Source: Coriobacteriia bacterium (GTDB lineage Bacteria > Actinomycetota > Coriobacteriia > Coriobacteriales > Eggerthellaceae). Taken from it: DNA of 32,126 nt. The position numbers were made by a program, and so were the translations under genes. The stretch spans positions 20,150-52,275 of the forward strand of contig JAUNCQ010000010.1 of the NCBI GenBank assembly GCA_030526515.1, written 5' to 3'. Under the pieces are notes generated by a model that had not been told where the DNA came from, did no database searches, and worked only from the letters and a program-made list of their open reading frames with translations. This document shows positions 17,584 to 32,126 of this stretch, in pieces. The number at the start of each line of letters is the position of its first letter. Within the stretch, counting starts at the first letter, position 1.

Positions 17584-17793
17584 CTACTGGAACTTGCGGT
17601 CCTGGTTGCGGCGCTCGGACTCATCAATCGGCTTGTACGTGGCACCTGCGATGTCGTCGGTGATGACCTTGTCAGCACCACACTTCTTACAGGTCGGAGC
17701 TTCGGCAGCGTTAAACGTGTCGCACTCAGGGCAACGCCACAGAATATTACCGATCGGCGGCGGACGGAAGCCGCCCTTCATCTGCTGAGACAT
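17584..17793 (-). CDS. Small zinc-ribbon protein, copy A
   Basis: A 69-residue soluble protein. It begins MSQQMKGGFRPPPIGN, then has one rubredoxin-like knuckle pair CPEC and CKKC separated by 14 residues (TFNAAEAPT lies between), fit for one Zn or Fe. The tail is polar with YKPIDESERRNQDRK. The copy at 25000-25209 differs by a single Asp/Glu, yet 28 nucleotides differ, all at third codon positions. A third relative is at 28350-28532. FRPP, the C-x2-C-x2-FNA block and CKKCGA define the family. GGAGGAG precedes ATG 17793. The function is unknown. Because copies B and C flank a molybdoenzyme, a role in redox-enzyme assembly or electron transfer is possible. Confidence 0.85.
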   Translation of the reverse strand: MSQQMKGGFRPPPIGNILWRCPECDTFNAAEAPTCKKCGADKVITDDIAGATYKPIDESERRNQDRKFQ

Positions 17794-18318: not shown

Positions 18319-19173
18319 ATGGCCGAGAACACGAAGATCATCGAACTCGATCCCGCGAACTACACCCTGAACGACTACGACAACGTCCGCATCACGCTTC
18401 CGCCCAAGGAAGTCATGACCAACGAGGACATCGACGCCGAGCTGTTCCAGTACGTCATCAGCAGCGGCAAGCAGATCAAGTCCATCGCCGACCTGGACGA
18501 CGAATGGGTCAAGCGCACCTTCGAGGGCATGGAGACCATCGACGAGGTCCGCAACGCAATCGTGGAAGACTACGAGCGTCAGCAGGAGTTCGCCCGCGCC
18601 GACCTGAAGTACCACGCCTGCTGCGAAGTTCTGATCGACCGTCTTGAGGGCGAAATCCCCGCCGACGTCATCCAGAACAACGTCAACGCCATCCGCAAGG
18701 GCAACGAAGAGCAGTTGGCCATGATGCAGATGAGCCTGACCCAGTACCTGCGCGAGGAGCACCTGACCCTGGACCAGTACGAAGCCAAGCTCCAGAAGGA
18801 GGCCGAGTACCAGACCAAGCTGAACCTGGCCCTGGACTGCATGGCCGTCGTTCTTTGCACCCAGGTCGGCAACCATGAGCTGACCGAGTACCTGTCCACC
18901 CCGGACCCGGCCGCATTCATCGCCGAGATCCGCGAGAAGGGCCTGGTGGAGGAAGCTCGCCGCGCCGCCGTCCGCGTCAAGGTCATGCGCCGCGTGGTCG
19001 ACACCGCAATCGTCACCATCGAGGGCGAAGAGCCCGAGCCCGTGAAGCCCGTCGTGGTCGAGGACGAAGAGCCGTTCATCATGCCGGACTTCGACGAGAT
19101 GCCGAACCCGAACATCGTCAACGCCGACGGCTTCGACAAGTTCGCATTCAACGTCGTCTCCACCAACGAGTAG
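18319..19173 (+). CDS. Trigger-factor-like chaperone lacking N-terminal ribosome-binding and PPIase domains
   Basis: The 284-residue protein matches the linker and SurA-like C-terminal part of trigger factor. LDDEWVKRTFEGMETIDEVR is the typical entry helix, followed by about 120 residues of long helices (ADLKYHACCEVLIDRL, IPADVIQNN) and the second-arm segment KEAEYQTKLNLALDCMAVV. The N-terminal 50 residues are short and do not form the ribosome-docking domain, and there is no FKBP-type PPIase module. A Glu/Pro-rich acidic stretch (about 235-260) precedes the C-terminus. GGGAGAA precedes ATG 18319. It lies 50 bp before a second trigger-factor-like gene and is probably cotranscribed. It is most likely a cytoplasmic holdase for particular clients, which is an inference. 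Confidence 0.7.
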   Translation: MAENTKIIELDPANYTLNDYDNVRITLPPKEVMTNEDIDAELFQYVISSGKQIKSIADLDDEWVKRTFEGMETIDEVRNAIVEDYERQQEFARADLKYHACCEVLIDRLEGEIPADVIQNNVNAIRKGNEEQLAMMQMSLTQYLREEHLTLDQYEAKLQKEAEYQTKLNLALDCMAVVLCTQVGNHELTEYLSTPDPAAFIAEIREKGLVEEARRAAVRVKVMRRVVDTAIVTIEGEEPEPVKPVVVEDEEPFIMPDFDEMPNPNIVNADGFDKFAFNVVSTNE

Positions 19174-19223: not shown

Positions 19224-20537
19224 ATGAAAGTAGAACGCGTACGTGAAAAGGACGGCAAGCTTGAGCTCATGGCAGAGCTGTCCGGCGCCGAGGTGGCCCA
19301 GGAGCTGAACGAGATCGCCCTGGCCGAGATCGCCAAGAACGAGTACGACTTCGATCACAACGGCGACCAGTCCGCCGTGGCATTCCTCCGCGACCGTCTG
19401 GGTTCCGACGAGGCCGCCTTCGTCTTCGACGAGGCCCTGATGCGCAAGCGCGCCTCCTTCGCCCTGACCGCCGCACAGGTGGACATCATCGGCTCCCCCG
19501 TGTACCGCTGCCTGGAGCACGCAACCGAGGGCAAGCCCTTCGAGTACCACCTGGTCGTGGTCCTGGTTCCGGAAATGGAGCTGGAAAACTACGACCCCGT
19601 CTCCATCACCGTTCCCTCCTACACCGTCAAGAAGGACGAGGTGGACGAGGAGATCGAGCGCATGGTCAAGGCTTCCTCCGTCAACGTCACCGACGAGTCC
19701 CATGAGACCGTCATCAAGGGCGACAAGGTCGAGCTGAAGCTGGAGACCACCATGGACGGCAAGAAGGTCCGCCCGCTGTGCACCGACGGCCGCCAGTACT
19801 CCACCGGCTCCCAGACCATGCCCGACGACTTCGACGAGGCCATCATCGGCATGAAGGTGGGCGAAACCAAGACCTTCAAGTTCCTGGGCCCCGACACCGT
19901 CCTGAACGAGGACGGCACCCCCAAGATGGACGAGTACGAGTGCACCGCCACCGTCAATCGCATCCTGACCGCCCAGGCCCCGACCATCAACGACGGCTGG
20001 GCATCCACCGTCCGCGCCGGCGTCAAGACCGTCGCCGAGCTGCGTGAGGTCGTTGAGAAGGAGATCCAGGAAAAGCACGACGACGACTATCGTCGCCTGG
20101 CCGAAAACCTGGCTGGCAACGAGCTGGCCAAGCGCCTGGTGGGCAAGATCCCCGACCTGGTCTACGGCGTTGCCGTCAAGGAAGCCAAGGAAAACCTGGT
20201 CAAGAACCTGAAGGAACAGCAGAACATGACGGTCGAGGAGTACCTGGAGAAGGAAGGCCAGACCGAGCAGCAGCTGAACCAGCAGCTCATGATGAACATC
20301 CGCCAGCAGCTGACCCGTCAGTTCGCCCTGAACGCCTTCGCTAAGCATCGCGGCCTGATCGCCGAAGAGGACGACATGAACGCCTACTTCGAGTCCATCG
20401 CCCCGGGCAAGGCCAACTTCGCCCACCGCGACTTCAAGAAGGACGGCCGCATGTACGCGGCCCGCTGCGCCGCGACCCGCCTGAAGGCCGCCCGCATCGT
20501 CGTGAAGGAAGCAAACGTCACCAAGCTGGGCCAGTAG
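19224..20537 (+). CDS. Divergent full-length trigger-factor-like protein
   Basis: This 437-residue protein has trigger-factor layout. An N-terminal alpha/beta domain spans about 1-115. An FKBP-like domain spans about 145-250, with IKGDKVELKLETTMDGK and then FDEAIIGMKVGETKTFKFLG. The helical C-terminal domain runs from about 265 to the end. The ribosome-docking signature GFRxGK of true trigger factors is replaced by YDFDHNGDQS (41-50), so binding to ribosomal protein L23 is unlikely. The length is normal for the family. AGAAAGGCACC precedes ATG 19224. It follows the shorter trigger-factor-like gene by 50 bp, has its own terminator (20578-20613), and is followed by htpG. Together they look like a specialised folding unit distinct from housekeeping tig. 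Confidence 0.78.
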   Translation: MKVERVREKDGKLELMAELSGAEVAQELNEIALAEIAKNEYDFDHNGDQSAVAFLRDRLGSDEAAFVFDEALMRKRASFALTAAQVDIIGSPVYRCLEHATEGKPFEYHLVVVLVPEMELENYDPVSITVPSYTVKKDEVDEEIERMVKASSVNVTDESHETVIKGDKVELKLETTMDGKKVRPLCTDGRQYSTGSQTMPDDFDEAIIGMKVGETKTFKFLGPDTVLNEDGTPKMDEYECTATVNRILTAQAPTINDGWASTVRAGVKTVAELREVVEKEIQEKHDDDYRRLAENLAGNELAKRLVGKIPDLVYGVAVKEAKENLVKNLKEQQNMTVEEYLEKEGQTEQQLNQQLMMNIRQQLTRQFALNAFAKHRGLIAEEDDMNAYFESIAPGKANFAHRDFKKDGRMYAARCAATRLKAARIVVKEANVTKLGQ

Positions 20538-24999: not shown

Positions 25000-25209
25000 C
25001 TACTGGAACTTACGGTCCTGGTTACGACGCTCAGACTCGTCGATCGGCTTGTAGGTAGCGCCAGCGATGTCATCAGTAATGACCTTCTCGGCACCGCACT
25101 TCTTGCAGGTCGGAGCTTCTGCAGCGTTGAAAGTGTCGCACTCGGGGCAACGCCAAAGGATGTTGCCAATGGGAGGCGGACGGAAGCCGCCCTTCATCTG
25201 CTGAGACAT
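25000..25209 (-). CDS. Small zinc-ribbon protein, copy B
   Basis: A 69-residue protein identical to copy A (17584-17793) except GAEKV in place of GADKV. The Cys motif CPEC and CKKC and the FRPPPIGN leader are the same. Nucleotide comparison over 210 bases shows 28 changes, all at third codon positions and 27 silent. The duplication is therefore not recent, and the protein is held almost constant by selection or the copies use different codon preferences. AAAGGAGG precedes ATG 25209. It is the last gene behind the molybdoenzyme and its ferredoxin subunit, 110 bp from the latter across a hairpin, and ends at a strong terminator. It may form part of the enzyme complex or its maturation path. Confidence 0.88.
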   Translation of the reverse strand: MSQQMKGGFRPPPIGNILWRCPECDTFNAAEAPTCKKCGAEKVITDDIAGATYKPIDESERRNQDRKFQ

Positions 25210-25277
25210 AATGTCCTCCTTTTAGTCTGAGCTTGGATCTTCGTAGAACCTTGCTCATTACGCGACTTTTAGGCAAG

Positions 25278-25301
25278 GCCCGGAGGCTTGCGCCTCCGGG
25301 C
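25278..25301 (-). other. Hairpin between the Fe-S subunit and zinc-ribbon B
   Basis: GCCCGGAGGC and GCCTCCGGGC pair perfectly around 4 bases. There is no T-run on the minus strand, so it may be an attenuator or RNA-processing/stability hairpin that sets different levels for the enzyme and the zinc-ribbon protein. Confidence 0.6.
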
Positions 25302-25319
25302 AGAAGTTACATAGAAGCT

Positions 25320-25730
25320 TTAGAGGGTGTACAGAACCATCTTGGACTTCTCGGCAGCCTTCTTGGCCAGCTCGTCGATGGAGCCATAGTACATAACTGC
25401 GGACTGGCAGTGATGCACGCACATGGGCAGACGACCCTGAGCAACGCGGTCAGCGCAGCCGTCGCACAGATCGGTCGGCATGGGAACGAAAGTCCACTCC
25501 CAGTTGCCCTTAACATTCTTGGTCGGACCATACTCCAGAACCTTGATACCCCAGTTGTTGGGATCCAGGCCCAGGTGCATCTGGCATGCGACCTCGCAGG
25601 AATGGCAGTTGGTGCACCACTCGTAGTTGATCAGAAGACCCTTGTCGGAACCCTCTGCGTTAGCGTCCTTGAAGTCAGCCCAATAACGAACGGCGTCAAA
25701 ACCACGGTTCAGCTCTTCAGCAGTAGCCAT
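25320..25730 (-). CDS. Two-cluster ferredoxin-type subunit of the molybdoenzyme (DmsB-like, minimal)
   Basis: The 136-residue protein has Cys39-Cys42-Cys45-Cys49 (CTNCHSCEVAC) and Cys89-Cys92-Cys104-Cys108 (CDGCADRVAQGRLPMCVHHC). These match motifs I and IV of DmsB/NrfC-type four-cluster subunits. The usual motifs II and III are missing, so it should carry two [4Fe-4S] clusters rather than four. In the known fold motif I pairs with IV and II with III, so loss of the inner pair leaves a coherent domain. It would pass electrons to or from the catalytic subunit, whose gene ends 5 bp upstream. There is no signal peptide, so it is cytoplasmic, and no membrane anchor gene follows. GATAAATGGCTACT forms its start, with only a weak Shine-Dalgarno, which suggests coupling. 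Confidence 0.9.
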   Translation of the reverse strand: MATAEELNRGFDAVRYWADFKDANAEGSDKGLLINYEWCTNCHSCEVACQMHLGLDPNNWGIKVLEYGPTKNVKGNWEWTFVPMPTDLCDGCADRVAQGRLPMCVHHCQSAVMYYGSIDELAKKAAEKSKMVLYTL

Positions 25731-25735
25731 TTATC

Positions 25736-28099
25736 CTACACCCCCTCGAACCTAGTGAAATGATAACCCTTGAGCGGCTTGGTGGTGATGCATGCGGAGT
25801 GATCGTGATCGTTCTCCGGGGTCACCTTGTAGCACTTGCACAGGGTGGACTTGTACGGTGCGCCATAGTGGGTCGGACCATAGACGCCCATGGTGGTGAG
25901 GTTGTTGGCGTTAGAGTTGAACACACCATACAGATGCGGCTCTGCTGCCTCTTCCTCGGGGAACCACCAGCCGTGACGTGCACGGACGAGGTTCGGGATC
26001 AGGCCGGGAGCGATGTGGATCTGCTGCTTGCAGCGACCGCGACCGTTCTCGAACCAGACCCAATCGCCTTCCTTGAGACCCAGCTCAGCTGCGATCTCTT
26101 CGGAGACGTCTGCGATAGCCGTCGGATGGAACTGACGCATATGCGGCAGCTGGCGATGCTCGGAGTGGAACAGGCCGATGTGACGGTGACCAGAGGTGTA
26201 GATGTACGGGTAGGTCTTGAACAGCTCCGGAGTACGATACGGGGACTCGTACGGCTCCATGTGATGCGGCAGCGGATCGAAGCCCCACACGTCGAACAGC
26301 GGGGAGTAGATCTCGAACAGACCAGTTGCGGTAACGAAGCCGGGGCGGCCGTCCTCGCGAAGCAGGCCCTTGGCATACTTCTCGTAGGTCTCGTTCCAAT
26401 CCCACCAGTCATAGACCTTGTGGGTGAGCTCTTCGAAGGTGTAGTCGACGCCATTGCCCTCGTCCTGGATCATCCAGGTCAGGAAGTCGTAGGTGGTCTC
26501 GAACTGATCGTAGAACTCGGGGTTGAAGCGCTTGCCCATTGCCATAACGAGCTCTTCGTCAGACTTGGACTCATAGTAACGACCAGCGGAAGCGGTGATC
26601 GTACGCAGCGGCTGCCACCAAGAACGATAGGAGTCGCGCTCGACGGACATTGCCATCGGCAGAACGACGTCTGCGAAGGCCACAGCGGTCGGAGTCAGAT
26701 AGTAATCAGCCACGACGGTGTACTTGATCTTCTTCCAAGCCTTGTAGATACGAGGAGCGTCGCCACCCATGTTTGCGATGGGGTTGGTCTGCTCGACCCA
26801 GATCAGCTGCGGACGATAAGGAACGCCAGTCTCCATGGCCTCGATCAGCAGATCGGGCGGAATGAAGGGCGTGTAACCGGCCTTGTGGATCGGGGACTGA
26901 GCGGTACCGATGCGGCGGTCGAGCATCTCGGGGGAGATGAACTCGAGGCCAGCGCCGTACTTCTTAGAGGAGTTGTATGCATAACGCATCTGGATGTTGC
27001 CACCCGGGACGTCCAGGTTGCCGCAGATGGCGACCATGTCGTCGATAGCGTTGGAAGCCTCCATAGCGGAGATCTGCATGTCGATTGCCAGACCCCACTG
27101 GACAGCGGAGGGCTTGCCGGAAGCATACAGGCGAGCAGCGTCAATCAGATCCTGCTCGTCGATCCAGCAGATCTCAGCGACCTTGTCGGTCGGATACTCC
27201 TGGACGCGCTCAGCGAGGGACTCGAAGCCGTAGGTCCAAGTGTTGGTCCACTCAGCGTCATACAGTTCCTCGTTGATGATGACGTTCAGCATACCGAGTG
27301 CCAGAGCGCAGTCGGTGCCAGGACGAACCTGCAGCCAAATGTCAGCCTTGGAGGCCAGCCAGGTCAGAGCCGGGTCGACAACGATGAGCTTGGAGCCCAT
27401 GCGCAGCAGGTCGATCAGCCAGTGACCCATGAAGCCGTCGGGGTTGGAAGCCAGAGGCTCGTTAGCCCAAACGATGATAACTTCAGGCTTCTTCCAATCA
27501 GCGTTGTTGTAGCGATCGGGGTGAGTCTGAGCGTTGTCAAGAATCCAGCAGTCGCCGCACTGCAGCAGGTTAGCGGTCATGCGGGGCTGATAGCAGGAGT
27601 CTGCGGACAGGAAGCCGAAGGACATGTTCGGAGAACCGAAAGCAGTACGCAGGATCATTGCGCCCTGCCACATTGCGTTACGGCCGGTACCGGACAGAGC
27701 AACGACGCCCTCGGGGCCGATGCCGCCGAACTCTTCCTTGATGATCTTGCAGCAATCAGCGAATGCTTCCTCGATGAAGTCAAGAGCCTCATCCCAGGTC
27801 ACGCGATTCCACTGGTTGGAACCCTTCTCGCCAGCCAGCAGCAGAGGCCACTTCAGACGATCGTGGTTGTAAATCTGCTCAACCATGTTGATGCAGCGCA
27901 GGCAAAGACGACCCTGGCTGTAAGCGAAGTTCGGGTCACCCTCGACTCGCTCGAGCTTGCCGTCCTTGACGTAGGTCAGGACACCACAACCATTGTGGCA
28001 GCCAGGACCGGTCCAGACTGAGGTACGTGTTACTTCATAACCATCCTCGTACCAACGCCAATCTGTCTTATACAGATCTTTATTGATCTCATTGATCAT
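25736..28099 (-). CDS. Molybdopterin oxidoreductase catalytic subunit (DMSO reductase superfamily)
   Basis: The 787-residue protein has the full fold: N-terminal Fe-S segment, molybdopterin core (WDEALDFIEEAF, GTGRNAMWQGAM, VIIVWANEPLASNPDG) and the C-terminal dinucleotide-binding domain (TSGHRHIGLFHSEHRQLP, GDWVWFENGRG). The Fe-S motif is altered. The canonical first Cys is Gly31; Cys34, Cys38 and Cys66 are in place, and an extra Cys69 (LCLRC) could supply the fourth ligand. Cys169 in SADSCYQPR is the likely Mo/W ligand. No twin-arginine signal, so it is cytoplasmic. Partners are the two-cluster ferredoxin and zinc ribbon B. I cannot name the substrate; acetylene hydratase-, transhydroxylase- and dehydroxylase-like branches are all possible. 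AAAGGGGGAA precedes ATG 28099. No GGRCGAAA octamer occurs. Confidence 0.9.
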   Translation of the reverse strand: MINEINKDLYKTDWRWYEDGYEVTRTSVWTGPGCHNGCGVLTYVKDGKLERVEGDPNFAYSQGRLCLRCINMVEQIYNHDRLKWPLLLAGEKGSNQWNRVTWDEALDFIEEAFADCCKIIKEEFGGIGPEGVVALSGTGRNAMWQGAMILRTAFGSPNMSFGFLSADSCYQPRMTANLLQCGDCWILDNAQTHPDRYNNADWKKPEVIIVWANEPLASNPDGFMGHWLIDLLRMGSKLIVVDPALTWLASKADIWLQVRPGTDCALALGMLNVIINEELYDAEWTNTWTYGFESLAERVQEYPTDKVAEICWIDEQDLIDAARLYASGKPSAVQWGLAIDMQISAMEASNAIDDMVAICGNLDVPGGNIQMRYAYNSSKKYGAGLEFISPEMLDRRIGTAQSPIHKAGYTPFIPPDLLIEAMETGVPYRPQLIWVEQTNPIANMGGDAPRIYKAWKKIKYTVVADYYLTPTAVAFADVVLPMAMSVERDSYRSWWQPLRTITASAGRYYESKSDEELVMAMGKRFNPEFYDQFETTYDFLTWMIQDEGNGVDYTFEELTHKVYDWWDWNETYEKYAKGLLREDGRPGFVTATGLFEIYSPLFDVWGFDPLPHHMEPYESPYRTPELFKTYPYIYTSGHRHIGLFHSEHRQLPHMRQFHPTAIADVSEEIAAELGLKEGDWVWFENGRGRCKQQIHIAPGLIPNLVRARHGWWFPEEEAAEPHLYGVFNSNANNLTTMGVYGPTHYGAPYKSTLCKCYKVTPENDHDHSACITTKPLKGYHFTRFEGV

Positions 28100-28349
28100 G
28101 AAATATTCCCCCTTTCAATCTTTCTCACTCAATGGATTAGCTGGTTAGCAGCGTCTTTACTGCCAACCATCTCCTATGTGTGTCCCGCACATGCGAGACG
28201 GTGCTAAAAGGCCTTCCTGCAGATTCGGAGGATCCCTGACTTCCTCGTCTTCCTAGCCCTTCGCGATTCCCCTGAATCGTTCCGGAACGGATACACCTGC
28301 GATCTGGCCGAGAAGCTAAATCAGCTGGCGCGCTTGGCGCCGAAGGGAC
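28100..28349 (-). promoter_or_regulatory. Structured leader region of the molybdoenzyme operon
   Basis: On the minus strand two consecutive hairpins precede the Shine-Dalgarno. One has 7-bp arms at 28182-28188 and 28193-28199 (loop ACAT). The other has 9-bp arms at 28143-28151 and 28160-28168 (loop CGTCTTTA); each has one G-U pair. Further upstream is a 12-bp perfect palindrome CGTTCCGGAACG (28278-28289), a candidate operator. The conserved wobble pairs hint at a functional RNA, but I cannot match it to a named riboswitch. Confidence 0.45.
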
Positions 28350-28532
28350 TTAAGCCGCGGGCGGCTTCGGTGCGCCGGGAGCAGCCGGTGCGCCGGGAGC
28401 TGCAGCAGCAGCGTCGCCAGCAGCGAGCTCAGCGCCGCACTTCTTGCACTTGGTCAGCTCGGGGGCGTTGAAAGCACCGCAAGCGTCGCACTTCTTCATC
28501 ATTTCGTCGAACGACGGGGGCCTGAAGCACAT
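28350..28532 (-). CDS. Small zinc-ribbon protein, copy C
   Basis: The 60-residue protein starts MCFRPPSFDEMMKKCDACGA and continues FNAPELTKCKKCGAEL, ending in an Ala/Pro/Gly-rich tail. FRPP, the CxxC pair, FNA and CKKCGA align with copies A and B, so this is a shorter paralogue with a different tail. I take ATG 28532, which has GAGG 7 bases upstream, over an in-frame ATG at 28601 with no Shine-Dalgarno. It lies 250 bp upstream of the molybdoenzyme gene on the same strand with no obvious terminator between, and has a long AT-rich upstream region with conserved blocks. Confidence 0.8.
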   Translation of the reverse strand: MCFRPPSFDEMMKKCDACGAFNAPELTKCKKCGAELAAGDAAAAAPGAPAAPGAPKPPAA

Positions 28533-28870
28533 AATCGATCCTCTTTCTCTAGATGATCTCTTTCGAGAAAACGTTCCGGTCGGGCCTCCCGATTTATTCA
28601 ATCGTCCCCGACCGCTTATGAACTATATCACACATCCGATTGAGGAGTAGTCCTGATTCGCTCATTTTTTTCGTCAGTTGTAGTTACACCCGTACTAGCA
28701 AAGATTTCAGCGCAATTTGCCAGATTATTGGATAGTACTACTCGTATTATGAGAGAACGTTTTCCCAGGTCACAGGGGCATACCATCTACGTTGGTGACA
28801 AGTACTAGAATTGAATATATCTTAATTGAGGATTATTCAATCTTTTCAATATGCCCTTTGATTTCGTCTG

Positions 28871-28930
28871 AAAATCAAAGCCTACCTTTTCACTGAGTAT
28901 TAGGGAAAAGGGTAGATCCGGCTTGATTTT
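28871..28930. repeat. Long imperfect inverted repeat
   Basis: AAAATCAAAGCC with TACCTTTTC (28871-28891) pairs with GAAAAGGGTA and GGCTTGATTTT (28905-28930). The 5-base insertion GATCC in the right arm makes a bulge. The loop is about 13 bases. It could be a small RNA, a second terminator for the minus strand or a remnant of a short transposable element. Confidence 0.5.
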
Positions 28931-28946
28931 GGATGTTTCAGCGCAC

Positions 28947-28973
28947 AAAAAAGAGGAGCCCGTGGGCTCCTCT
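28947..28973 (-). terminator. Terminator of the LRR/Cys-rich operon
   Basis: AGAGGAGCCC and GGGCTCCTCT pair (28952-28973), followed on the minus strand by TTTTTT. It lies 16 bp past the stop codon of the Cys-rich gene. Confidence 0.9.
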
Positions 28974-28988
28974 CATACGCCGTATGAT

Positions 28989-29336
28989 TCAGTGTCGTGC
29001 CTTCGACGCTGCCGTCGGATGGGCGTCCAGCCACTCCTGGCTCGGCGGCGTGTTGCGCTCGCAGGGCTGGTCTCCCCAGTCGTGCTTCGGACTAGTGCTC
29101 TTGCCGCAGCTGTAGGCGCACAGCTTGCCGCTGTAGTTGCACAGGACCACCTTGGGCCTGCACATGTCGGTCAGGTCCTTGCCGCACTTCTTGCACAGCA
29201 AGTCGCCTCCTGCAATCACCTGAGCCTTCTCGAAGACCGTCAGCGTCCCGCAGTCGGGGCAGTTGCCCGGACGGAACGGCGGCGGCTGGCACTTGCCGCA
29301 CCAGGGATTGCAGATCCAGCATCCTCCTCCTGCCAT
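28989..29336 (-). CDS. Cysteine-rich multi-zinc-knuckle protein
   Basis: A 115-residue protein with about 14 cysteines. CWICNPWCGKC near the start is followed by PPFRPGNCPDCG. Farther on are LLCKKCGKDL, and then MCRPKVVLCN with LCAYSCGKS. The CPDC/CKKC pair and the PPFRP element recall the three zinc-ribbon proteins, so it may be an enlarged member of that family binding two or more metals. The tail is polar (EWLDAHPTAASKARH). GGGG precedes ATG 29336. It follows the LRR gene by 48 bp with no terminator between and is the last gene of that unit. I do not recognise a named family. Confidence 0.75.
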   Translation of the reverse strand: MAGGGCWICNPWCGKCQPPPFRPGNCPDCGTLTVFEKAQVIAGGDLLCKKCGKDLTDMCRPKVVLCNYSGKLCAYSCGKSTSPKHDWGDQPCERNTPPSQEWLDAHPTAASKARH

Positions 29337-29384: not shown

Positions 29385-31469
29385 CTACTGGTTCAAATAA
29401 GCAAGGAACTCCTGGGCGTTCTCGCTTTCCGCGATCTTGATGGCAAGCTCGCGGTTTTCACCCTGAAGATAACCATTGCGGTCAAGCAACTTGACGGCAT
29501 CAAGGTCGCCGGTCTGCACGTATCGCAGCAGCGCCGGGTTCATGTAGCGCTCCAGAGCGGAGTTGTAGTTCACCCGGGCGAAACGGTCCAGCTTAATGGG
29601 GCGCTCGATGCGCGTCACGGCCATCTTCAGCACCATACCGGGGTCGTACTGGGTCACGGCCATGCTGTCATAGGACGCGAAGTCGAAGAACAGGCCGTCC
29701 TCGTCCATGCACAAGGCACGGCTGAAGTCGTTGATATCGCGGGCATGGTGGGGGCACAGAACCTCCACGTGGTCGAAGCCATCCACCTCATGCGGGAAGT
29801 CGATGACCACCTTGTCCAGCATGTCCACGCCCATCATGGCGCGGGGATCGATGTGCTTGATGCCCGCATGGAAGCGCAGCTCCGCCACGTAGGCGTAGTG
29901 GAAGCACATGTCGGCAATGTAGGTGACCTGCTCGGGGATGACCACGCAGTCGCAGGGCTCCACGAACACCAGGGCCTTGTGGCCGTTGGGACAGCGCTCG
30001 ATGAGCAGGTTGCTCTGGTAGTAGTAGCGCTCGTTGGCCGGGTCCACGTCCAGGTGGCGAATGGTCCTGCGGTCATGCTCGAGGGTGTCTCCGGCGGTCT
30101 CCAGGGCGTTCTTGCCCAGGCGATCCACCTTCGGACCCAGATGCACGGACTCCAGGGACGTACGCCAGAACGCGTTGGCGCCGATTTCCTCCAGGGAATC
30201 CGGGAAGTTCACCTGGCGCAGCACGTCACAGGAGCGGAAGGCGGCATCGCCGATACTGCGGATGCCCTCCGGCAGGGTGACTTGCTGCAGGTTCATGTGG
30301 TTTTCACAGGCGCCCGCGGCCACGGTGACCGTGCCAGGCGCCACGTCATACTGCTCCGGCTTGCCGTACAGGCCCTCGAACACCAGGCCGTCCTCCCCGC
30401 GGGAGTACAGGCCCTGGCCATCCAGGGTCAGGTACGGGTTTTCGGGCGATACGGTCAGGCTGTAGCCGCCCTCCCCCGCCAGCATGCGGGCGTCGAAGGC
30501 ATGCAGGCCCATGCGACGCACCGATGCGGGCACGTCCACGCTCTTCAAGCCGCGGCACTGGGCGAAAGCCTTGTCGGAAATGACCTCAACACCGTCAGCC
30601 ATGCGCACCTGCTCCAGCTTCAGGCAGGAGCCGAAGGCGTTTTCGCCCACGGTACGCAGGGTTGCGGGCAGATCAAGCTCCGCAATGCCGGTGCGGAAGA
30701 AGGCAAAGGAGCCTATGCTTTCCACATTGCCCAGGTCAACGGCGGCCAGCTTGGTCTGGCCCTTGAAGGCCGAATGGCCGATGGCACGACAGCCTGCGGG
30801 CACCTGATAGGACTCCACGGTGACCAGCGCGCTGATCAGCTCGGAGCCGTCGGCCGTGAACAGCGCCACACCGTCGGTGCTCAGATGCGGGTTGTCGGGC
30901 GAGATGACGATCTTGGTCAGATGCTGATGGTTGAAGACCTGCTCTCCCACCTTGGCCACGGCCGCCGGAATGGTCACTTCCTGCAGCGGGCAATCATAGA
31001 AGTTGCGGGTCTGGAGCACCGTCAGGGACGCCGGAAGCGTCAGGTCGGTGACCTTCATGCAGCCGCTGAGCACGGATGCATCGATTTCCGTGAGGGCGTC
31101 GGAGAAGACCACACGCTTCAGGCTGAAGCAGCGGCCGAACGCCTTCTGGCCGACCTTATTTATAGTAGGCGGCATCTGCACGGATTCCATGCGGCCGTCC
31201 ATGAAGGCGCCGCTGATGATTTCCCGCACCTCGAGCTCACCGAGTCGGGACGGGATGATGACGTCGGCTTCCGCGCCTTCGTAGCGCACGATACTGGCGT
31301 AGGACTCCGAGGAGCCTTCGTCCGCGGAAACCACGTAGACCCAGTCGCCCTCCTTGATGCAATCCTGTTCCTGGATCACGCGACCGACGCCTACGCTGCC
31401 GACGACATTGGATCGAATGGCCTCCTGGCCCTTCTTCGACCACTGGGAAAAGTCCATTAGTTCTTGCAA
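29385..31469 (-). CDS. BspA-type leucine-rich-repeat protein with ankyrin-like tail
   Basis: About 694 residues. The body is a series of LRR_5 (BspA/TpLRR) repeats with the pattern seen in LPASLTVLQTRNFYDCPLQE and LPATLRTVGENAFGSCLKLE, interrupted near 400 and 500 by non-repeat inserts. The last 50 residues (LLRYVQTGDLDAVKLLDRNG) resemble an ankyrin repeat. No signal peptide or membrane anchor is visible, so unlike many BspA proteins it may be intracellular. I favour the TTG at 31469 because AGGGGG stands 6 bases ahead of it and a TATGCT -10 box lies at 31503-31508. ATG 31457 and ATG 31490 are alternatives, the latter with no Shine-Dalgarno. It is likely cotranscribed with the Cys-rich gene. 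Confidence 0.82.
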   Translation of the reverse strand: MQELMDFSQWSKKGQEAIRSNVVGSVGVGRVIQEQDCIKEGDWVYVVSADEGSSESYASIVRYEGAEADVIIPSRLGELEVREIISGAFMDGRMESVQMPPTINKVGQKAFGRCFSLKRVVFSDALTEIDASVLSGCMKVTDLTLPASLTVLQTRNFYDCPLQEVTIPAAVAKVGEQVFNHQHLTKIVISPDNPHLSTDGVALFTADGSELISALVTVESYQVPAGCRAIGHSAFKGQTKLAAVDLGNVESIGSFAFFRTGIAELDLPATLRTVGENAFGSCLKLEQVRMADGVEVISDKAFAQCRGLKSVDVPASVRRMGLHAFDARMLAGEGGYSLTVSPENPYLTLDGQGLYSRGEDGLVFEGLYGKPEQYDVAPGTVTVAAGACENHMNLQQVTLPEGIRSIGDAAFRSCDVLRQVNFPDSLEEIGANAFWRTSLESVHLGPKVDRLGKNALETAGDTLEHDRRTIRHLDVDPANERYYYQSNLLIERCPNGHKALVFVEPCDCVVIPEQVTYIADMCFHYAYVAELRFHAGIKHIDPRAMMGVDMLDKVVIDFPHEVDGFDHVEVLCPHHARDINDFSRALCMDEDGLFFDFASYDSMAVTQYDPGMVLKMAVTRIERPIKLDRFARVNYNSALERYMNPALLRYVQTGDLDAVKLLDRNGYLQGENRELAIKIAESENAQEFLAYLNQ

Positions 31470-31502
31470 AACGAACCCCCTGTCTGTCATTTTTGCCGCT
31501 TT

Positions 31503-31508
31503 AGCATA
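31503..31508 (-). promoter_or_regulatory. Candidate -10 box of the LRR gene
   Basis: TATGCT on the minus strand, which predicts a leader of about 30 nt carrying AGGGGG and supports the TTG start. The -35 was not resolved. Confidence 0.4.
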
Positions 31509-31599
31509 GCACAGCGCCTCGGGGCGACCCCCACGTGAGCTGTCTTCAGCCCCTGCCATGATTTTCCCGTGGACGAAAACAGCGCGAAACAATGCTCCG

Positions 31600-31605
31600 T
31601 ATAAT
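31600..31605 (+). promoter_or_regulatory. -10 box of ddh
   Basis: Perfect TATAAT 39 bp before the ddh start codon. No clear -35. A GGACGAAA octamer (31571-31578) lies at the position where a -35 would be expected. Confidence 0.55.
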
Positions 31606-31644
31606 GTGCATGGATAAACGTAAACCTGCGAAGATCGGAGCAGC

Positions 31645-32126
31645 ATGAATATTGGTATTGTGGGCTACGGCAACCTGGGCCGCGGCATCGAGAGCGCAAT
31701 CCGCCAGAACGACGACATGGAGCTGGCAGCGGTGTTCACCCGTCGCGAGCCCTCCACCGTGACCATCCAGACCGAGGGCGTGCCCGTATACAACGTGGCC
31801 GACTTCGAGCAGCATGCTGCCGAGGTCGACGTGCTGGTCATGTGCGGCGGCAGCGCCACCGACCTGCCGGAGCAGACCCCGGTGTTCGCCAAGATGTGCA
31901 ACGTGATCGACAGCTTCGACACCCATGCCAACATCCCCCAGCACTTCGCCAACGTTGACGAGGCTGCCAAGGAGTCCGGCCACACCGCGCTGATCAGCTG
32001 CGGCTGGGACCCGGGCATGTTCAGCCTGAACCGCCTGTACGGCAACTGCATCCTGCCCGAGGGCAACGACTACACCTTCTGGGGCAAGGGCGTGAGCCAG
32101 GGCCACTCCGACGCCGTCCGTCGCAT
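31645..32126 (+). CDS. ddh: meso-Diaminopimelate D-dehydrogenase, 5' part
   Basis: The first 160 residues are visible; the gene runs out of the window. Ddh reductively aminates tetrahydrodipicolinate to meso-diaminopimelate with NADPH and ammonia, a one-step route to lysine and peptidoglycan precursors. The N-terminal Rossmann motif GIVGYGNLGRGIE, CGGSATDLPEQTP, SFDTHANIPQHF, the signature SCGWDPGMFSLNRLYG and GKGVSQGHSDAVRRI closely follow the Corynebacterium enzyme as I recall it. ATG 31645 has CGGAG upstream. It is divergent from the LRR gene. Confidence is high despite the truncation. Confidence 0.95.
   Translation, partial: MNIGIVGYGNLGRGIESAIRQNDDMELAAVFTRREPSTVTIQTEGVPVYNVADFEQHAAEVDVLVMCGGSATDLPEQTPVFAKMCNVIDSFDTHANIPQHFANVDEAAKESGHTALISCGWDPGMFSLNRLYGNCILPEGNDYTFWGKGVSQGHSDAVRR

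Follow-up and report, generated by a model that had tools for sequence, protein, structure and literature searches.

Predicted zinc-ribbon mini-proteins encoded in many copies beside cytoplasmic molybdoenzymes of Eggerthellaceae

The gene group and its near-identical copies

The window analysed here, a stretch of 32,126 nucleotides from a Coriobacteriia bacterium of the Eggerthellaceae, encodes a molybdopterin reductase (Mo enzyme) and its 4Fe-4S partner, whose genes are enclosed by those of two cysteine-containing mini-proteins, copies C and B. The relevant features are listed below.

17584–17793, minus strand: copy A, 69 residues, a near-identical paralogue of B (six-frame reading)
18319–19173, plus strand: trigger-factor paralogue reduced to the C-domain, 284 residues (PF05698, E = 2e-11; no Trigger_N)
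19224–20537, plus strand: trigger-factor paralogue, 437 residues, without the GFRxGxxP ribosome-docking signature (PF05698 and partial PF05697)
25000–25209, minus strand: copy B, predicted zinc-ribbon mini-protein of 69 residues, KGGFRPPP ... WRCPEC..FN..CKKCGA (six-frame reading)
25320–25730, minus strand: 4Fe-4S electron-transfer partner, 136 residues (Fer4_11 above the Pfam cut-off)
25736–28099, minus strand: molybdopterin reductase, 787 residues, cytoplasmic, without Tat signal (Pfam Molybdopterin, Molydop_binding and Fe4S4)
28350–28532, minus strand: copy C, MCFRP-type predicted zinc-ribbon protein of 60 residues with an Ala-Pro-Gly-Lys tail (six-frame reading and alignment)
28989–29336, minus strand: D, Cys-rich protein of 115 residues with an N-terminal CxxCxxxCxxC block and a ribbon (open reading frame)

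Consistent with the original prediction, all three copies are present, the signature FRPP-x7/8-(K/R)CxxCxxFNAxExxxCKKCGA matches A, B and C, and the coordinates place B and C on either side of the molybdoenzyme and ferredoxin genes, with B as the final gene of a C-Mo-4Fe4S-B group. Copy C starts at a good ATG, giving MCFRPPSFDEMMKKCDACGAFNAPELTKCKKCGAE..., while the solitary copy A lies outside positions 25000–29336, divergent from the two trigger-factor paralogues. Copies A and B show 99% protein identity (one residue differs) and 87% DNA identity (28 of 210 bases differ); since the proteins are near-identical despite this DNA divergence, selection on them is purifying and these are not chance open reading frames. 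In two related genomes, the A and B proteins are closer to each other within a genome than to their counterparts in the other genome, and the A–B DNA identity (182–185 of 210 positions) equals that between genomes (183–185 of 210); gene conversion or constraint may account for this likeness. A phage search with copy B gave no match, nor did an Rfam scan of the window find any RNA family.

Protein D does contain the PPFRP, CPDC and CKKCG motifs previously noticed in it, but it looks like a member of a separate, second family with an N-terminal CxxCxxxCxxC block. Homologues of D (48–68% identical) occur in many of the same molybdoenzyme loci as the C/B family. Small proteins combining a CxxCxxCGxC-like N-terminal block with a ribbon form a second group near Mo enzymes (28989–29336 in the window; L112 11545, L114 8103, L119 7766, L122 6596, L198, L204 and L184 9529). 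Immediately upstream of D and on the same strand, positions 29385–31646 encode a BspA-type leucine-rich-repeat protein, and similar genes are present in several diverged Mo loci.

The molybdoenzyme of the window has the layout of a DMSO-reductase family member lacking a Tat signal and paired with a small 4Fe-4S subunit. Among solved structures, acetylene hydratase (2e7z, E = 1e-66) is nearest to it in sequence, and a DmsB-type match of the 136-residue protein falls far under the equivalog cut-off in an NCBIfam scan. The enzyme shares its lack of a Tat signal, and its small 4Fe-4S subunit, with the soluble catechol dehydroxylases of Gordonibacter type, Dodh, Gp Hcdh and Eadh1-3 (PMC7028382, PMC12771579); this likeness is one of layout, and they are likely to be the class of the partner enzymes. 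Some partner Mo enzymes, 22–27% identical to that of the window, differ from this layout in having larger 4Fe-4S subunits. The steroid 21-dehydroxylase cluster Elen_2451–2454 was considered as the same operon and rejected, its flanks being described as FdhD and SPFH/band 7.

Architecture of the MCFRP family

Judged by sequence, copy C is a member of a family, named here MCFRP, whose members begin with MCFRP and continue with a ribbon of four cysteines and a tail of Ala, Pro, Gly and Lys. Copies A and B are related to it through FRPP and the ribbon, and have neither the MC start nor the tail. A census combining a class-wide search with a DNA pattern finds 16 (G066), 17 (G069), 21 (G086) and 24 (G087) MCFRP genes in four large genomes; unlike these MCFRP-rich genomes, four others contain none, two of them Eggerthella-like. 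A reversed-pattern control gave one match over all eight census genomes. The window's own genome (G000) holds three MCFRP genes. We read 96 distinct genes, copy C and 95 others, 88 of them intact. All 96 start with ATG. Each of the 88 intact ones carries two CxxC motifs or more beyond residue 5, and a tail rich in A, P, G and K (at least three AP dipeptides) is found in 84 of the 88. The ribbon interior is highly variable, whereas the first residues and the character of the tail are conserved. A B-type query finds matches in 28 of 138 Eggerthellaceae genomes, a count that takes in C-type and a few doubtful matches. The extent of the family is stated here for Coriobacteriia, from searches that covered family, class and phylum; outside Coriobacteriia, the phylum-wide search mostly matched the ribbon core alone, without the MCFRP start.

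Two CxxC knuckles and a predicted ribbon fold place the mini-proteins in the RanBP2/zinc-ribbon fold class, and they probably bind zinc. Their cysteine spacing, C-x2-C-x10-C-x2-C, is that of RanBP2/NZF zinc fingers and eL40 ribbons, and the W and N positions of RanBP2/NZF fingers agree with B. Profile matches to zinc-ribbon/RanBP2 families reach 25.6 and 25.7 bits for B and C, under the Pfam gathering cut-off of 27 bits, whereas one MCFRP protein exceeds the cut-offs for Zn_Ribbon_1 and Zn_ribbon_3. In an AlphaFold model of B, used for the ribbon core because overall confidence is low (66) while the ribbon has pLDDT values of 81–83, a 26-residue core superposes at 0.4–0.6 Å on Nup153 fingers; Foldseek similarities are not significant (E = 0.04 or worse). 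The likeness to RanBP2/NZF-type fingers is one of sequence and model, with no sign of Ran, ubiquitin or RNA binding.

A further regularity lies at the nucleotide level. The Arg4 codon is AGA in 84 and AGG in 12 of the 96 genes (for example at 28532 in the window), and a further census adds one exception, CGA. By comparison, across the G066 and G069 loci AGR makes up 7% of all Arg codons, a share that rises to 28% at codons 3–5. A constraint acting on nucleotides at the beginning of the gene is possible; the plain account of it is weak structure where translation begins, and we offer no explanation of our own.

Genomic neighbours of the ribbon genes

Two complete Gordonibacter genomes together hold 33 MCFRP genes, of which 29 (88%) lie within 5 kb of a Mo enzyme gene on the same strand, the Mo enzymes being taken from PF01568 lists of 83 and 66 members. 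A zinc-ribbon family without any link to Mo enzymes would, in genomes crowded with them (66–99 each), be expected to show some such proximity, but random positions predict a fraction of 0.11–0.12 (binomial P about 8e-12 and 5e-13 in the two genomes), which makes a chance neighbourhood extremely improbable; these P values overstate independence, as the genomes belong to one genus and the genes are paralogous, yet the effect remains large. When the 96 loci were mapped with a simple gene caller, 84 had a Mo enzyme no further than 5 kb away, and an 85th enzyme that the caller had missed was recovered by tblastn. The association with redox enzymes thus extends well beyond the window, as the original prediction required, and so does gene order. 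The C-Mo-4Fe4S-B arrangement recurs in about ten other loci or genomes, including Gordonibacter, Paraeggerthella and Adlercreutzia, with Mo enzymes 79–98% identical. A Raoultibacter locus has Mo-4Fe4S-B without C, and where the Mo enzymes are about 50% identical a single MCFRP gene follows the 4Fe-4S gene.

Not every molybdoenzyme has an MCFRP neighbour. A Tat-like motif (RRx[FLIVM] in the first 60 residues) is found in none of the 80 Mo enzymes nearest to MCFRP genes and in 5 of 23 control enzymes from 20 loci away from such genes (Fisher P = 4e-4); MCFRP genes are absent beside Tat-exported enzymes. In G066, the nearest MCFRP gene is over 9 kb away for 60 of 83 Mo enzymes. A putative eam urolithin cluster, with two Mo enzymes, an amidohydrolase and MFS genes, contains no MCFRP gene, so that the factor is not required in cis for every such enzyme. 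Conversely, one MCFRP gene (G000:C28) has no redox neighbour within the 5–6 kb read on either side. A mirror-tree comparison of MCFRP proteins with their Mo partners gives r = 0.41 over all pairs, orthologues included, while covariation within genomes is weak (r = 0.08, 0.11 and 0.37); being unconvincing within genomes, it is left out as evidence.

Other genes share these neighbourhoods. Within 5 kb, a 4Fe-4S protein is found at 71 and a multi-transmembrane protein at 70 of the 96 loci. The latter figure might suggest that the ribbon protein couples an MFS-type importer to the reductase and that the Mo link is secondary, as might L112 and L149, where the ribbon gene is co-oriented with a transporter and divergent from the Mo gene; we regard such a scaffold as quite unlikely, because B and C of the window have no adjacent transporter and the Mo enzyme is the commoner neighbour. 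The proposal of an accessory system stands as to its link with redox enzymes, which the neighbourhoods strongly support, but not as to a partner restricted to the molybdoenzyme: the partner set also takes in diverged Mo enzymes, flavin reductases and trigger-factor paralogues, and a few loci have no visible redox gene. In two genomes (L139 6255–6660 and L183 5765–7859) a split flavoprotein carries the MCFRP ribbon at the start of its second-half protein, the fused remainder being the second half of an FAD_binding_2/FMN_bind reductase whose first-half gene lies directly before. At three loci the MCFRP gene forms an operon with an AAA_15 ATPase; these operons (L113 4560–6861, L148 and L052 9025–11446) add two small proteins, and the best PADLOC match of the ATPase is NsnB (E = 2e-49).

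A regulatory function, in which the ribbon protein would tune how the reductase cluster is transcribed or translated, for instance together with LuxR-type membrane regulators, is unlikely. LuxR-like genes lie near 27 of the 96 loci by a crude motif test, RanBP2-type fingers are able to bind RNA (PDB 3g9y), and the near-universal AGR at codon 4 suggests a constraint on nucleotides. However, the LuxR association is weaker than that with Mo enzymes, the ribbon proteins have no recognisable DNA-binding domain, and neither the pair of ribbon genes around one Mo enzyme nor the fusion to an enzyme half is what a regulator would lead one to expect.

Trigger-factor paralogues also gather near MCFRP genes. 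Besides the presumed canonical copy, G066 has six paralogues (PF05698) and G069 four, of which five and three, respectively, have an MCFRP gene no more than 5 kb away; conversely, just 18 of the 96 MCFRP loci have one. The presumed canonical trigger factor of the window's genome (G000:C47) has GFRKGKAP, whereas the MCFRP-adjacent paralogues examined lack GFRxGxxP near the start, with one exception (G000:C41), which lies about 2.7 kb from an MCFRP gene and retains GFRKGKAP. On that same contig (L214 12660–15366), a Mo enzyme beside an MCFRP gene and trigger-factor paralogues appears to have lost its N-terminal Fe-S cysteines, and its partner ferredoxin likewise seems to lack its cysteines. Elsewhere in the window's genome (L215 4196–7061, contig C8), a trigger-factor paralogue sits between rplW (L23) and rplB, and in L111 and L150 an MCFRP gene adjoins its counterpart.

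Possible roles in reductase biogenesis

Our best reading, to which we give a probability of about 0.45, is that the mini-proteins serve as adaptors in the biogenesis or assembly of cytoplasmic reductases, mostly Mo and sometimes flavin enzymes, in Eggerthellaceae, acting much as FdhE may do and unrelated to it. The ribbon and the FRP(P) N terminus would bind protein partners, with the flexible Ala-Pro-Gly-Lys tail as a tether, and the adaptor could keep the apo-enzyme, or the enzyme with its 4Fe-4S partner, ready for folding or cofactor insertion; at some loci it might work alongside a trigger-factor-like chaperone. Protein binding and a role in maturation are suggested by the same-strand clustering with Mo enzymes far above chance, the C-Mo-4Fe4S-B order, the lack of a Tat motif in the partners, the proximity of trigger-factor paralogues, the flavin-reductase fusion, the conserved CxxC motifs and tail, and the ribbon's resemblance to protein- or RNA-binding RanBP2/NZF fingers. 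Against them stand the majority of Mo enzymes in these genomes, which have no MCFRP gene nearby, the putative eam cluster without one, the weak covariation, the G000:C28 gene, the small share of loci with a trigger-factor gene, and the fusion, which would suit a stable subunit too.

Precedents exist for both the protein type and the gene arrangement. The original prediction held that no zinc-ribbon subunit or maturation factor had been described for this superfamily; FdhE contradicts this: it is rubredoxin-like, carries four CX2C motifs and is needed for periplasmic formate dehydrogenases (PMC10609526). Like the mini-proteins, FdhE has metal-binding CX2C motifs, is encoded near molybdopterin enzymes and is thought to serve biogenesis (PMC10609526). 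It differs in its four CX2C motifs and its periplasmic, Tat-exported formate dehydrogenases, the mini-proteins having about 60–100 residues, usually two CX2C motifs and non-Tat neighbours. Membership of the FdhE family was rejected: B and C have two CX2C motifs, their neighbours lack Tat motifs, and the FdhE profile matches neither B, C, D nor further MCFRP proteins in Pfam, nor B, C and D in NCBIfam.

In Eggerthella lenta, Dadh activity depends on co-located accessory genes, including that of the unknown-function protein DadhE, reported as essential (PMC11887054). The products DadhD-I comprise a helicase-domain protein, a hypothetical protein, a TorD-like chaperone and ferredoxins, most of them essential for activity (PMC11887054), and offer a precedent for dedicated accessory genes beside catechol dehydroxylases. 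Unlike the mini-proteins, they serve membrane-anchored Tat enzymes and are described without mention of a zinc ribbon, a distinction of description and not of sequence. Searches of the open literature, to the exclusion of subscription journals and supplements, gave no paper linking zinc ribbons with Gordonibacter or catechol dehydroxylases. Small metal-ribbon accessory proteins of this superfamily are known, whereas the MCFRP family, with its number of copies and its range of partners, is undescribed as far as these searches reach.

The proteins might instead be permanent structural or redox-tuning subunits of the reductases, possibly binding iron as rubredoxin does, which we consider doubtful. 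A gene directly beside those of the catalytic and 4Fe-4S proteins, the retention of this group at about ten loci and the covalent fusion with a flavin-reductase half in two genomes would all suit a stable subunit, but many paralogous Mo enzymes have no ribbon protein. The knuckles of the mini-proteins are about 10 residues apart, whereas those of rubredoxin have a far longer spacing. Moreover, purified Eadh1, Eadh2 and Eadh3 are reported as active from G. urolithinfaciens, although this host may supply its own copies (PMC12771579).

A bolder form of the adaptor reading, which we think very unlikely, is that FRP(P) mimics the docking loop GFRxGxxP of trigger factor and that mini-proteins and loop-less trigger-factor paralogues together form a split co-translational chaperone for cofactor-containing reductases. 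If so, the AGR at codon 4 would belong to translational control of the MCFRP genes.

The mini-proteins suggest an overlooked helper family for gut Mo reductases. In the human gut, cytoplasmic catechol dehydroxylases and related enzymes act on polyphenols and similar compounds; the partner Mo enzymes are of the kind that removes hydroxyl groups from dietary and host molecules. Catechol dehydroxylases are reported to be hard to express beyond related hosts (PMC11887054). A helper family present in many copies would be a concrete, deletable candidate for a missing factor, and its association with trigger-factor paralogues points to a folding route reserved for molybdoenzymes and distinct from the known TorD/NarJ one.
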